Notes under the pieces: model-generated
Told to the model about the DNA's origin: nothing
The model's input: only the letters and a program-made list of their open reading frames with translations
The model's database searches: none
Program-made: the position numbers and the translations under genes
Shown here: positions 57,787 through 64,000 of the stretch, piece by piece
Numbering within the stretch: the stretch's first letter is position 1
How the letters are laid out: every line of letters begins with the position of its first letter
NCBI GenBank assembly: GCA_026986005.1
Contig: JALSPK010000186.1
Span: 1-64,000 of the forward strand
DNA from: Saprospiraceae bacterium
GTDB lineage: Bacteria > Bacteroidota > Bacteroidia > Chitinophagales > Saprospiraceae
Reading direction: 5' to 3'
Length of the DNA: 64,000 nt

Positions 57787-57969
57787 CCCTTAAGTTTGGG
57801 TTCTTTTTGAAGGATTCGACGTTTTTAACATCCCTCATTATCGGTAAACAAAAATGCAATAAGTTGATTTAATGCAATTTATTTGATAGTACTTGTCACA
57901 AAGTATTAGGTTTACTTTTGCGTCTTATTTTGAAATTCTTATTTTTTAACTTTAATAAAATTGTCTCAA

Positions 57970-60900
57970 ATGAAAACTACAATTTACAATTTTAAGAAAG
58001 TTGGTATTGTTTTACTATTTTTAATAATGGGATTACAATATGGATTTTCACAAATTGATGCTGATATTAGTTTATTGTCGGTATCACCTGCAACCGGACC
58101 ATATTCTTATGGGCAGAAAATTACTTATAATTTTAGGGTAACAAACAATAGTATTGCACCTTATGATATTGACAGGGTAGTTTTGCGTGATTATTTACCG
58201 GCTGGACTAAAGTTTTATCAAGCTGATAATTCTCTAACTTGGATTGACCTTGGTGGTGGGGTATTGGAAGCCTCTTCCAATGATTTTATTCCTGTTTCAG
58301 GAGGAACAAAAGATTATAGTATTGTTCTTACTATTGTTGGGAACTCAGGAGGTGTTGATGCTTGGAAAAATAAAATTGAACTTTTTCAATTTTTTAATGG
58401 GATTAATGAATTATCCCTAAATGACCCTGATAATCATACAAATAATGATACGGATTGGGTGACTTACCGTTTTGATATTTTCGATTTAGCATTAAAAAGT
58501 GTGACAGGAAATGTCTATCCTGATTATGGAACGAATGTTAATTTTGATATTACTGTATACAATCAAGGTAGTATGGATGCAACAAATGTCGTTGTAGCAA
58601 ATTATACACTTCCCGGTTATACTTTTGATTCTGCTAATAATCCGGGATGGGTTTTTGATGCAGTTTCAGGAAATTGGAAATTTACATTTGCCGGGCCAAT
58701 TGCTCCCGGTGCTCATGAGACAAAAAGCATTGTACTTAAGTTGAATCCTGCTCAAACCCAAAGTGAATGGGCAAATTATGCAGAGATTGTAAGTGCTGAA
58801 GATAATTCAAATAATCCTATGGCTGATGTTGACGGTACTTTTGATGAGGATTATTCCAATGATGCCGGCGGTAAGCCCGGTAGTGCAGCAGATGACGCAA
58901 TCGACGGTGATGGAACCGGTTCAGTCGGAGGAAGTGACCCTAATACTGATGAAGATAATCAAGATCCGGGTTACGCTAGAATTTTTGATTTAGCTTTAGT
59001 CAAAACAACCGATGTTGGAGCTCTTGTAAATTATGGTGATTTGTTTGCTTTTCATTTTACAATATATAATCAAGGAACAGTACCGGTGAAAGATATTCTG
59101 ATTAAGGATTATTTACCTTCAGGTTATCAGTATAGTGCAGGGGACAATGTGGGCTTGGGATGGAATGTTGTAGGTAGTAATGTTGAAAATACAATCCCAC
59201 TATTATTGGCTCCGGGAGCTAGTACAACAATTGATCTTAATCTTAAGATGGTGGATGTAGTGTCTGACCATACAGAATATGTAAATTATGGAGAAATAGC
59301 TGCTGCTAATGATGAGGGAGGTAATGCTCTTAATGATTTTGATGATTCTGATAGTGAGATGAATTCTAATTCTACTTCCGAAAGGGAAGTGTTACCAGGT
59401 TCTATGTTTGATGATGATGAATGGAGGACTGGTGCAAATGGTTATCAAGATGACCATGATCCGGGAATTGCTAATTTTTTGGATTTAGCAGTAAAACATA
59501 CCGTTATAACACCCGGACCTTATCATGCAGGAGATGATATACAGTTTTCAATTAAAGTATACAATCAAGGGGGTATCAGTACAAGGGATATTGAATTAGT
59601 AGATTTTATTCCTTCGGGATATGCATTTTCTACGACTAGTTTTCCTGATTGGGTGTATGACCCGACCCACAGTAAAGCTGCGATGACTATTTCAGATATA
59701 TTGAATACAGGAGATTCAATAGAAAAATTTATTTATTTGAAAATATTGCCTGTTGACAATAAATTTGATTCTTATGTAAATGTGGTTGAAATTAAAAGCA
59801 CTAAAGATTTGAGTTTGAATTATATTATTTCTGATGTTGATAGTGAAATGGATGAAGATAATACAAATGATGCAGGGGGCAAATACAGATCAGCTAGTGA
59901 CGATAGTGTTTTAGGAAATGGAACGGGAAATCCGGGAGACACCAATGCATTAACAGACGAAGATGATAGTGATCCTGCTCTACCTGATGTGTATGATTTG
60001 GCAATCAAAAATATTTTGACAACAGCAGGACCGTTTATGTATGGGCAAGATCTAACATTTAAATTTATTGTGTACAATCAAGGAAATATGGCTGTGAGTG
60101 GTGTTAAAATTGCAGATTATCTTCCGGCTGGTTATGACGTTACTACTGCTACGGGATGGAATGTAGTAGGTAATACACTAACTTATGATTTTGGCAATTT
60201 GGTTTTTAATCCAGGAGATACAGCATTTGTGGAAGCAACATTTAAAACAAAAATGACTTCCGGTGGCGAAAAAGATTGGGTGCACTACGCAGAGGTGACT
60301 AATATGAGTTCGACTACGGGAGGCGATAGATCAGGATGGGATTTGGATTCAGATCTGGGTTCAAATAATCCTTCTGAGTTAGCGATTGAATTGGGTAGTA
60401 CTGATGATGATGCAATTTGGGTTAAAGGTCCATATTTGAATGAAGATGAAGATGATCATGATCCGGCGGGGATAGAGCTATTTGATTTAGCTTTGCGAAA
60501 AACAATAAATTCCATTTATTATCCATTTGAGTATGGTGATATTATACCGTTTAAAATGACGGTGTTTAATCAGGGAAGCATAGAAGCTAAAAATATAAAG
60601 ATTACAGATAAAATTAAATGCGGATATGATTTTATTTTAGCGAATAACCCCGGTTGGGTAGAAAATGCCTTAACTAATACAGTAGAATATACACTAACCC
60701 AAGCTTTGGCTCCGGGTGCTTCAGTAGATGTTATATTGAACTTAGTAGTGAAACAATGTATTGAGCCAGGCGATTCATGGAATAATGTTGCTGAAATATC
60801 TTATGCTGAAGATATAAATGGCACTGACATGAGCAATGATGATTTTGATAGTACTTATGATGATGACTTCTCTAATGATGCTGGTGGTACACCTGATACA

Positions 60901-63900
60901 GTGGAAGATGATATGTTGACAGGTGATGGTAAAAACGGACCCGGTAATGGATATGTACAAGAGGAAGATGATGAAGACCCTGCGAGAATGCATGTTTTTG
61001 ATTTAGCTTTAAAAAAGACATTGCTGGATACTGATCCACATTACGGTGACACATTAACTTTCAATATAACTATTTATAATCAAGGTAATGATGATGCTAC
61101 AAATGTTGATATTAAAGATTATGAACCCATAGGATTTTATTTTGATCCTTCATTGAATCCTGGTTGGAATGGTAATATATTTACTAATTTGAATTATACA
61201 TATGGTGGAACAATTGCCGCTAAAGATAGTGCTGTTGTTGCCCTAAAACTTGTTATGGTTGGTACTCATGGTGGTGATGATCATTGGATTAATTATGCAG
61301 AGATATCAGATGCTGATAATGCTACAGATCCCAATTTTGTCTATCTTGATCCTGATAGTACTCCTGATTCAAATACGCCTACTGAGCAATCTGTGAAACC
61401 CGGAGATATGGATGACGATAATATTTTTGCTATTGATAAAGGTGGGAAAGAGGATGATCATGATCCTGCCGGTATATGGGTATATGATTTGGCTTTGAAA
61501 AAAGAAATTGTTACCCCTGGACCTTATTTCCACGGAGATACGGTTGAATTTAAGGTTACTGTTTTCAATCAAGGTAATAAATTGGCGAGAGAGATTCAAG
61601 TCGTAGATTACAATCCTGCCGGTCTTTTGTATTCTTCAACAAATTTCCCTTTATGGCATAGTGATAGTAATACGGGTAATTCACATGCTACAATTTCGCA
61701 AGCTTTGAATCCTGGTGATTCTGTCGTTTTGTCTCTTTATTATGTAGTACAACTTGTGGATAATAAATGTGGTGATGCTTACACTAATAACTCTGAGATT
61801 TTTGAATTTAGAGATGAAAATCTTTATGTTGTACCTACTGATTTTGATAGTACGCCGGATTATATTGAAGATAATGATATCGGTGGCACTCCTAATACAC
61901 CTGAAGATAATCATGTTGATGATGACGGTCATGATTACAATCATGATGGTATTACAGATGAGGATGATAGTGACCCCGCAAAACTTGAAATAATTGATGT
62001 TGCTGTCAAGGCGGAATTGACAACGTCAGCTCCATATTTTTATGGACAGGATCAACAGTTTAGAATTAGAGTTTATAATCAAGGAAACGATACTATTACT
62101 CAACCGGAAATTCAAGGCTATATACCTGCCGGGTATCAAATTGATTGGGCTTTAAACCCTGGTTGGAATAGTGCAGATACCACTTACACAATAATGGATT
62201 CTATTCCTCAATGTGATAGTTTTGATATTTTTATGACTTTGAAGATGGTAATGACTTCCGGTGGTGAAAAGGATTGGGTTAATTATTTTGAAGTGAATCA
62301 TGTTTTGAATAAATTTTTGCAAGACAGAACAGGGTGGGATATGGACTCACAGTTGGGATCAGATACTCCGGCAGAAAGATCTGTTGAATTAGGAGACTCT
62401 AACGATAATAACGTCTTGACACGTGGTGTAGGTTTTGGAGAAGATCAAGATGATCACGATCCTGCAGGACTTGAGATTTTTGATTTAGCTCTGACAAAGT
62501 CATATGACGATTTGTACCCACATTACTATGGTGATACTATTCATTTTGAGATTAAATTATACAATCAAGGTAGTATTGTCACTTCAAATCAAGAAGTTAC
62601 AGATTATATCCCATCTGGTTATATATTTAAAGCTGATATAAACCCTGACTGGACTTATGATTCAAATACAGGAGTGGCAAAAACTGTTGTTTCTAATATG
62701 TTAAATCCGGGTGATACAATTAGCAAATTTATTAACCTGATACTAACTGATAGTTATGAAAATGGTGATGATTGGGAGAATGGAGCAGAAATTTCAAAAT
62801 TTGCTGACGCCACAGGTAATGATCAAACAGGTAATGATTTTGATTCGACCAATGATGATATTAAAAACAATGATCCAGGTTTGGATAATCCTGATTTTGT
62901 TGGTGGTGATGGTAAAAATGGGCCAACTCACGGATATCCTCAAGTAGAAGATGATGCTGATTTGGCTACACCTAAAGTATTTGATCTTGCCTTGAAGAAA
63001 ACAGTAGTTACTGGTGGTCCATATAGTTATGGCGATAATATAACCTTTAAAATTGAGGTGTTTAATCAAGGAAATCAAATTGCGAACCAAATAGTATTGA
63101 ATGACTATATCGCTTTGGGATATTCATTTAATGCTGGTCTGAATCCAGGCTGGTCTTATGCTGCAGGATTGGCAACTTACAATTTGCCGGGGCAGTTGAA
63201 TCCTGACAATTCTACTTCTGTAAATATAGTGCTTACATTGGAGAGAACAGACGGTGGTCTTGATAATTGGATTAATTATGCTGAAATAGCTTCTGCTGAC
63301 AATCCTGACGGATTGCACAATATTGATGCTGATAGTAACCCAGGATCGGATGCTCAACATGAAAGAGATGTCAAGCCCGGCGATGCTAATGACGATAAAC
63401 TTGATGGTCAATTTATAAGTGAAGCGGAGGATGAAGATGATCATGATCCAGCAGGAATTGAGATTTTTGATCTAGCTCTGAGAAAGAAAATAGCTACAGT
63501 TGGGCCTAAATTTGATTACGGTCAGACTGTTGATTTTGAAATAGAAATATTTAACCAAGGTAATACTGATGCAAAGACAATTAAAATAGAAGAAGAGGCC
63601 ATCCCATGCGGTTTTGATTTTGATGTTGCTGCTAATCCAGATTGGACATACAATTCAGGAAGTAGGACAGCAACTTATACTTATTCTAATACTATTACAC
63701 CTGGTTCAAGTGCGATATTACATGTGTTTATGACTGTTTGGGATTGTCACAATGACAATTGGGAACTTTCATGGAAAAATTATGCTGAAATTACTTATGC
63801 TGAAGACGGAACAGGAGCTAACAGAAGTAATGATGATATTGATAGTCATTTTGATACAGATCCTTACAATGATTTGGTAGTTGATGATGCTATTCAATCT

Positions 63901-64000
63901 CCTGAATCTTTGGACGATGATGATCATGATATTGCTATTGTGACCGTTGCTGATCTTGCATTGAAAATAATTGCCGATGATAGAGGGCCTTTTGCTCCCG
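57970..64000 (+). CDS. Giant secreted DUF11-repeat protein, 5' part, cut by the window edge
   Basis: The frame opens at ATG 57970 with a signal peptide (GIVLLFLIMGLQYGFSQ) and stays open for 2010 codons to the end of the window. After a divergent first module (about 28-160) come eleven complete modules of about 161-171 residues and the start of a twelfth. Each opens with a FDLALK-like motif (near 172, 340, 504, 675, 838, 1009, 1172, 1342, 1504, 1671, 1832, 1994), continues with YGD..F.I.VYNQGN and DYIPAGY, a GWxY strand, then (N/H)YAEI, and ends in an acidic linker such as DEDDHDPAGIE. This is the DUF11/CARDB-like beta-sandwich type. The acidic linkers could bind calcium. Expected role: surface adhesin or fibre, probably a T9SS client, but the C-terminus lies outside. 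Confidence 0.93.
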   Translation, partial: MKTTIYNFKKVGIVLLFLIMGLQYGFSQIDADISLLSVSPATGPYSYGQKITYNFRVTNNSIAPYDIDRVVLRDYLPAGLKFYQADNSLTWIDLGGGVLEASSNDFIPVSGGTKDYSIVLTIVGNSGGVDAWKNKIELFQFFNGINELSLNDPDNHTNNDTDWVTYRFDIFDLALKSVTGNVYPDYGTNVNFDITVYNQGSMDATNVVVANYTLPGYTFDSANNPGWVFDAVSGNWKFTFAGPIAPGAHETKSIVLKLNPAQTQSEWANYAEIVSAEDNSNNPMADVDGTFDEDYSNDAGGKPGSAADDAIDGDGTGSVGGSDPNTDEDNQDPGYARIFDLALVKTTDVGALVNYGDLFAFHFTIYNQGTVPVKDILIKDYLPSGYQYSAGDNVGLGWNVVGSNVENTIPLLLAPGASTTIDLNLKMVDVVSDHTEYVNYGEIAAANDEGGNALNDFDDSDSEMNSNSTSEREVLPGSMFDDDEWRTGANGYQDDHDPGIANFLDLAVKHTVITPGPYHAGDDIQFSIKVYNQGGISTRDIELVDFIPSGYAFSTTSFPDWVYDPTHSKAAMTISDILNTGDSIEKFIYLKILPVDNKFDSYVNVVEIKSTKDLSLNYIISDVDSEMDEDNTNDAGGKYRSASDDSVLGNGTGNPGDTNALTDEDDSDPALPDVYDLAIKNILTTAGPFMYGQDLTFKFIVYNQGNMAVSGVKIADYLPAGYDVTTATGWNVVGNTLTYDFGNLVFNPGDTAFVEATFKTKMTSGGEKDWVHYAEVTNMSSTTGGDRSGWDLDSDLGSNNPSELAIELGSTDDDAIWVKGPYLNEDEDDHDPAGIELFDLALRKTINSIYYPFEYGDIIPFKMTVFNQGSIEAKNIKITDKIKCGYDFILANNPGWVENALTNTVEYTLTQALAPGASVDVILNLVVKQCIEPGDSWNNVAEISYAEDINGTDMSNDDFDSTYDDDFSNDAGGTPDTVEDDMLTGDGKNGPGNGYVQEEDDEDPARMHVFDLALKKTLLDTDPHYGDTLTFNITIYNQGNDDATNVDIKDYEPIGFYFDPSLNPGWNGNIFTNLNYTYGGTIAAKDSAVVALKLVMVGTHGGDDHWINYAEISDADNATDPNFVYLDPDSTPDSNTPTEQSVKPGDMDDDNIFAIDKGGKEDDHDPAGIWVYDLALKKEIVTPGPYFHGDTVEFKVTVFNQGNKLAREIQVVDYNPAGLLYSSTNFPLWHSDSNTGNSHATISQALNPGDSVVLSLYYVVQLVDNKCGDAYTNNSEIFEFRDENLYVVPTDFDSTPDYIEDNDIGGTPNTPEDNHVDDDGHDYNHDGITDEDDSDPAKLEIIDVAVKAELTTSAPYFYGQDQQFRIRVYNQGNDTITQPEIQGYIPAGYQIDWALNPGWNSADTTYTIMDSIPQCDSFDIFMTLKMVMTSGGEKDWVNYFEVNHVLNKFLQDRTGWDMDSQLGSDTPAERSVELGDSNDNNVLTRGVGFGEDQDDHDPAGLEIFDLALTKSYDDLYPHYYGDTIHFEIKLYNQGSIVTSNQEVTDYIPSGYIFKADINPDWTYDSNTGVAKTVVSNMLNPGDTISKFINLILTDSYENGDDWENGAEISKFADATGNDQTGNDFDSTNDDIKNNDPGLDNPDFVGGDGKNGPTHGYPQVEDDADLATPKVFDLALKKTVVTGGPYSYGDNITFKIEVFNQGNQIANQIVLNDYIALGYSFNAGLNPGWSYAAGLATYNLPGQLNPDNSTSVNIVLTLERTDGGLDNWINYAEIASADNPDGLHNIDADSNPGSDAQHERDVKPGDANDDKLDGQFISEAEDEDDHDPAGIEIFDLALRKKIATVGPKFDYGQTVDFEIEIFNQGNTDAKTIKIEEEAIPCGFDFDVAANPDWTYNSGSRTATYTYSNTITPGSSAILHVFMTVWDCHNDNWELSWKNYAEITYAEDGTGANRSNDDIDSHFDTDPYNDLVVDDAIQSPESLDDDDHDIAIVTVADLALKIIADDRGPFAP

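Follow-up and report, generated by a model that had tools for sequence, protein, structure and literature searches.

Alternating module classes in a giant DUF11 repeat protein of Saprospiraceae, a likely surface stalk

Contig JALSPK010000186.1 of a Saprospiraceae bacterium (assembly GCA_026986005.1) encodes a giant repeat protein of about 2,720 amino acids, whose gene begins near the end of the window that we analyzed (positions 1-64,000 of the forward strand). From N- to C-terminus, the protein consists of a signal peptide, a degenerate DUF11 domain as a cap (M0), twelve DUF11 modules (M1 to M12), three SdrD_B domains, and a type A sorting tail for the type IX secretion system (T9SS). We found that the twelve modules belong to two classes, A and B, which alternate along the chain, and that these classes are common to six proteins of this bacterial family. 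The pattern was first spotted by eye in the window itself, in an earlier note that described eleven modules joined by two kinds of acidic linker, so a test on other proteins tells more than a test on the window.

Two module classes in the window protein and its relatives

The DLAL-type modules lie where the earlier note had placed them, but there are twelve rather than eleven, because the open reading frame runs on to a stop at contig position 66123. Successive modules start 168, 165, 171, 163, 172, 162, 170, 162, 167, 162, and 161 residues apart. Modules of equal parity (both odd or both even in number) have a mean identity of 36.7%, as compared to 31.7% for unequal parity; by distance along the chain, identity is 31.6% for neighbors (lag 1), 36.6% at lag 2, and 39.6% at lag 4. 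In the linker columns of the alignment, the division into odd and even modules ranks best among all 462 ways to split the modules six and six. We also built a maximum-likelihood tree of the modules from the window protein and its two orthologues (L007 and L008, both with the same 12 modules). As the earlier note had predicted, A and B form separate clades, on opposite sides of one branch (support of 89/83, 88% of bootstraps). The note's claim of alternation without exception stands when modules are classed by profile, though not by the NDxGG motif, as the linker of M11, an A module, is short and lacks it.

For the test on other proteins, we trained hidden Markov models only on the window (A linkers from M1, 3, 5, 7, and 9; B linkers from M2, 4, 6, 8, 10, and 12) and applied them to five distant Saprospiraceae relatives with 11 to 23 modules each (L009 to L013). 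The expected class of each module was set by its position, counted back from the SdrD_B end. The models placed 81 of 85 modules in the expected class, left 3 undecided, and got 1 wrong (L013_8). Thus, the two-class alternation holds in sequences that were not seen when it was proposed. In a tree of 98 modules from all six proteins, labels based on position alone require 2 changes, versus a mean of 33 when shuffled, and the exceptions are end modules. Within L009 to L013, neighbors are 32-38% identical, versus 52-69% for modules at lag 2.

The assignment to DUF11 (PF01345) is based on a match of the whole protein in 12 stretches (E = 5e-111). When M1 to M10 were scanned one by one, they scored 24.8-53.8 bits, so each is above the curated cut-off of 24.6 bits; M0, M11, and M12 are also over this cut-off. 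The three SdrD_B domains (PF17210, E = 3e-69) adjoin the C-terminal end of the protein. The tail exceeds the cut-offs of two T9SS profiles, PF18962 and TIGR04183 (48.8 bits versus 23 for the latter). The same genome encodes about 150 T9SS sorting tails and a full-length SprA, the outer-membrane channel of the T9SS (2023 bits), so the protein has both the C-terminal sorting domain and the genomic T9SS that are expected for type A cargo. The mature protein is very acidic, with a predicted isoelectric point of about 4.05 and a charge of about -306.

The mechanical start of the reading frame is TTG at 57961, but ATG at 57970 is the more likely start. The frame overruns the window, and the rest of M12, the SdrD_B domains, and the sorting tail lie on the same contig (Table 1). 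The flanking genes look like housekeeping genes (ssb, gldE, a gene for a small predicted lipoprotein, pssA, and a chloride-channel gene). We rejected the gene neighborhood as a clue to function, as the upstream neighbors are conserved only beside the orthologue L007 and look like bystanders. The genome encodes another protein of this type (L006, 3591-6266), whose gene is cut off by the end of contig C47; this secreted protein has an SdrD-like region and then an A-type DUF11 module. A 5'-truncated gene at the start of contig C69 (L049, 3-2843) combines DUF11 modules with several SdrD-like repeats and a tail of the T9SS type, and the loops of its two DUF11 modules are nearly identical.

Table 1. 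Features of the repeat protein gene within the window. The triad gives the residues at the Lys, Asp, and Asn positions.
Feature	Position	Strand	Class	Triad	Remarks
N-terminus	57970..58053	+			Signal peptide-like (MKTTIYNFKKVGIVLLFLIMGLQYGFSQ) with ATG start; from the sequence
M0	58054..58482	+	Cap, degenerate DUF11	S-D-N	Short 33-residue loop; DUF11 match 58093-58461, E = 5.4e-7
M1	58483..58986	+	A	S-N-N	Triad lost
M2	58987..59481	+	B	K-D-N	
M3	59482..59994	+	A	H-D-N	K-D-N in orthologues L007 and L008
M4	59995..60483	+	B	N-D-H	Triad lost
M5	60484..60999	+	A	K-D-N	N-N-S in both orthologues; within the A-B-A model
M6	61000..61485	+	B	K-D-N	Within the A-B-A model
M7	61486..61995	+	A	K-D-N	Closest to M3; EF-hand-like loop motif DxNxDGxxD
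M8	61996..62481	+	B	A-G-N	Triad lost; closest to M4
M9	62482..62982	+	A	K-D-N	Closest to M5
M10	62983..63468	+	B	K-D-N	Closest to M6 by identity
M11	63469..63951	+	A	K-E-N	Shortened loop without NDxGG
M12 (start)	63952..64000	+	B	I-D-H	Remainder beyond the window, same contig

Module copying, and alternation in other arrays

In L009 to L013, the closest relative of a module is mostly two modules away. Some of these lag-2 copies reach 97-98% identity in protein and 94-96% in DNA (modules 6 and 8 of L009; 3 and 5, and 14 and 16, of L013). These copies, and the sharing of the A and B classes by six proteins, bear out the earlier note's suggestion that such proteins grow by copying multi-module units, with a period of about 330 residues.

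In the window protein, the nearest neighbor of each of M1 to M10 is four modules away, as the earlier note had supposed, but the statistical support is limited: if modules are permuted within each parity, the excess identity at lag 4 has p = 0.014 for the window protein, p = 0.035 averaged over the three orthologues, and p = 0.09 for L007 alone. The trees support the pairs unevenly. In the orthologue tree, starred support unites M3 with M7 and M4 with M8, and in a wider tree M5 joins M9 with moderate support (93), while M6/M10 are close by identity only and pair in neither tree. So the note's second layer of likeness is strong for M3/M7 and M4/M8 and is not recovered for M6/M10. One might argue that the likeness at lag 4 is scatter on top of the A/B parity, without any duplication, and the modest p values and the unpaired M6/M10 would fit this. 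Given the three pairs with tree support, and a comparison of M3-M6 with M7-M10 that gives p = 0.002 (for a block that was picked after seeing the data), we consider mere scatter to be rather unlikely. Instead, the sequences point to a four-module duplication as probable for part of the array; it would be old and partly resolved, with 54-59% DNA identity between the copies.

To see how far alternation extends, we built a profile from the A-B-A stretch and ran it against 61 genomes sampled from this bacterial family, of which 31 matched at E <= 1e-40. Strong dyads are also seen in two further long arrays, L056 and L062: modules of the same parity are 65% and 67% identical, as compared to 42% and 47% for different parity, and the two-module periods are strict (154/150 and 163/152 residues). 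In the tree, their modules fall outside of A and B, and the odd and even modules of each protein are sisters (support of 80 and 96). These dyads look as if they evolved independently of A and B, although homogenization inside one protein could give the same picture. Five other arrays (L052, L055, L060, L061, and L064) have no parity signal, and their neighboring modules are 44-69% identical. Because such monotypic arrays exist in the same family, alternation is not required for this kind of stalk. We rejected the idea that all Saprospiraceae DUF11 arrays must alternate, as several are monotypic and the A and B profiles from the window fail to order most of the distant ones. In L060, which has 30 or more DUF11 modules, the spacing varies (158-174) and the nearest copies are 4, 7, 8, or 9 modules off, which suggests that larger blocks were copied.

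Why should a protein alternate? Unlike neighbors might avoid domain-swapped misfolding of similar Ig-like (immunoglobulin-like) domains, as proposed for titin, so that alternation itself would be selected and only even copies would survive; this rule for neighboring domains is stated in PMC4660218. It would explain why neighbors are the least alike, both here and in L009 to L013, and why dyads recur in L056 and L062. But identity at lag 3 is as low as at lag 1, which plain inheritance in twos also predicts, the recurrence in L056 and L062 could be mimicked by homogenization, and the neighbors in monotypic L052, L060, and L064 are 62-69% identical. Surface stalks that break the rule have also been described (PMC8201768). 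With support from the recurrent dyads and opposition from the monotypic arrays, we think that misfolding avoidance is an unlikely explanation. Nevertheless, as one bacterial family has alternating arrays, dyads that look independent, and monotypic arrays, the idea that neighbors must differ can be tested within one fold.

Acidic loops and the isopeptide triad

DUF11 was renamed CLIPPER after a crystal structure revealed an isopeptide bond between Lys715 and Asn806, with Asp748 as the probable catalyst (PMC12617251; 9IFR). We used AlphaFold2 to model an A-B-A stretch of the window protein (60466-61806, with an alignment of 55 rows). The model is confident, with a predicted local distance difference test score (pLDDT) of 90.5 and a predicted template modeling score of 0.84, and it has the CnaA-like Ig fold that is expected for CLIPPER/DUF11. 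The CLIPPER crystal structure aligns with 114 residues over positions 175-340 of the model (Z = 10.1, root-mean-square deviation 3.0), and there are further matches to TRAP-beta (110 residues over 177-338) and to alpha-1-macroglobulin (119 residues over 5-177). These spans, each of which matches a single domain, run across the acidic stretch and leave about 50 residues per module unaligned inside, which is the length of the acidic stretch. In the model, the acidic segments thus behave as loops of about 46-53 residues within domains, and they do not look like the inter-module linkers of the earlier note. Based on the alignment ranges, each looks like a loop of about 45-65 residues that is inserted ahead of the domain's last strand, between the strand ending in NYAEI and a last strand near DPAG or DPAR; the next domain appears to start at once.

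The two loop types differ in predicted structure. The B loops are predicted to be well ordered, with a short helix (blocks with pLDDT of 81-95), while the A blocks range from 63 to 88, with one stretch under 50. The motifs differ as well: NDxGG occurs mainly in A loops (39 of 48, versus 1 of 49 in B) and ED[EQ]DDHD(P/V)(A/S) mainly in B loops (29 of 49, versus 1 of 48 in A). A loops end in ..DEDDxDP(E/x)R.. and B loops in ..EDEDDHDPAG..

These differences raise the possibility that the alternating loops have separate jobs in binding a metal or a partner, so that ligand sites would recur along the fiber with a period of two domains; A loops, for instance, might serve as calcium staples and B loops as rigid junction caps. 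Aspartate and glutamate make up 28-32% of the loop residues, and the acids are strongly conserved. An EF-hand-like motif (D.[DN].[DN]G..[DE]) is found in 14 of 48 A loops, versus 2 of 49 B loops and a mean of 2.0 (maximum 6) after shuffling, and the contrast in predicted order would also fit. However, in the window protein, M7 alone has the EF-like motif, and some loops of L014 and L016 are down to about 30-40 residues, so we view separate jobs for the loops as a rather doubtful idea.

The earlier note had not considered isopeptide chemistry. In the alignment of module cores, K6, D40, and N98 belong to six invariant columns. The Asp-Asn spacing of 58 is the same as between Asp748 and Asn806 of 9IFR, the Lys-Asp spacing is 34 versus 33, and a profile search matched the Lys and the Asp to the 9ifr chain (E = 4e-6). 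The Lys-Asp-Asn triad (K-D-N) is retained in 176 of 221 modules over all loci, including every module of L010 (23), L011 (19), L012 (17), and L016 (14). Modules with the triad can probably form an internal isopeptide cross-link. Some DUF11 domains without the triad are already known (PMC12617251).

The window protein is unusual in that the triad is partly or wholly lost in five modules (M1, M3, M4, M8, and M12). It is complete in 6 of the 12 modules (M2, M5, M6, M7, M9, and M10), and M11 has K-E-N. M3 and M5 differ from both orthologues, in opposite directions (Table 1). As triad status differs even among orthologues, loss seems to be recent and ongoing. The losses are linked: of the 35 modules that lack the Lys, 26 are missing the Asp or the Asn as well, versus 10 of the 186 that have it. 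Because some losses are shared and are not independent events, we do not treat the Fisher value for this comparison as a probability. In modules 10 to 18 of L013, the triad as a whole is exchanged for I-V-V in five alternate A modules and is intact (K-D-N) in the intervening B modules.

A candidate surface stalk and the systems it resembles

Taken together, we think that this is probably a T9SS-exported surface stalk, the shaft of a fibrillar adhesin, with two module classes, copying in even numbers, and partial cross-linking. The signal peptide would direct passage through the Sec system and the T9SS tail would anchor the protein on the outer surface. The three SdrD_B and thirteen DUF11 (CLIPPER) Ig-like domains would then form an elongated chain, and if the C-terminus is anchored, M0 would form its outer tip. 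Classes A and B differ in the core and above all in the acidic loop before the last strand. Modules would be copied in even numbers, by twos in the relatives and, apparently, by four once in the window protein. Recombination in register would keep A beside B, and if A-to-B and B-to-A junctions are distinct, out-of-phase joins would be disfavored. Domains with K-D-N could cross-link internally; roughly one in two modules of the window protein no longer has this triad.

Several observations weigh against parts of this scenario. If only core columns are considered, 7 of the 462 splits do as well as odd/even, so alternation in the cores is weak. The support for the deep branch between A and B is modest (84 in the wide quick tree, besides the value from the orthologue tree), and a few end modules sit on the wrong side of the trees. 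L016 has a block copy at an odd lag of 9, and the monotypic arrays do without alternation. The case for linked triad loss is weakened by losses that are shared by the five L013 copies and by the two orthologues. Finally, a domain search found only a degenerate DUF11 domain at the N-terminus and no recognizable ligand-binding head. Adhesion is therefore argued by analogy; judged by its architecture, the protein is likely to be a surface stalk like those of fibrillar adhesins.

A broader proposal is that one family of giant Saprospiraceae stalks follows a conserved rule of strict alternation, which was kept through repeated module turnover and evolved separately in other arrays because each of the two junctions, or each loop type, plays its own mechanical or binding role; in certain arrays, such as L013, alternation would even set which domains are cross-linked. 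We offer this as a tentative possibility.

The earlier interpretation was partly supported: it got the copying right, gave an incomplete account of the linkers, and missed the isopeptide chemistry. What was a pattern seen by eye becomes a case in which the growth of giant repeat proteins can be put to the test. Our results also place predicted DUF11/CLIPPER cross-link chemistry in T9SS-exported stalks of Bacteroidota, where the triad can be seen being lost residue by residue. Literature searches that combined DUF11 with T9SS, or type IX secretion with adhesin repeats of Saprospiraceae, gave no match.

Among known systems, the A-band super-repeats of titin are also made of Ig-like domains whose higher-order arrangement recurs every several domains. 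This is an analogy only, as titin is an unrelated protein and the window protein is bacterial, with a two-class alternation. Aureispira is a predatory Saprospiraceae bacterium. Its grappling hook protein GhpA (9FLP) is a giant surface protein with weak DUF11-like stretches; we set aside a direct relation as too weakly supported, since the match has E = 0.015 overall and even the best stretch is not significant alone, and nothing points to a role in common. The periscope proteins (SasG, Rib, and Sgo_0707; PMC8201768) have rod-like stalks that grow by copying repeats, and SasG alternates two domains, G5 and E. However, the window protein lacks their near-identical repeats: at 54-59% DNA identity, it is not a young length-variable array, while L009 and L013 come closer. 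Like the MSCRAMMs of the SdrD/SdrC type and their B repeats, the window protein has three SdrD_B domains by its presumably anchored end and matches to SdrD and UafA structures, but it has a T9SS tail instead of LPXTG, and no MSCRAMM ligand-binding region was recognized.

The closest likeness is to the CLIPPER/DUF11 stalks of fibrillar adhesins (PMC12617251; 9IFR), which share the Pfam family, the CnaA-like Ig fold, the tandem array in a long secreted protein, and the triad spacing. The same paper mentions DUF11 alternating with DUF7507 (CLIPPER/CLIPPER_2). We rejected this as the basis of the A/B pattern because both classes match DUF11 best: it was the best family for ten of ten modules scanned, with weak DUF7507 matches in both classes. 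Thus, CLIPPER stalk domains are known, and the window protein differs from them in that about half of its domains lack the triad and that each carries a long acidic loop of one of two alternating types.

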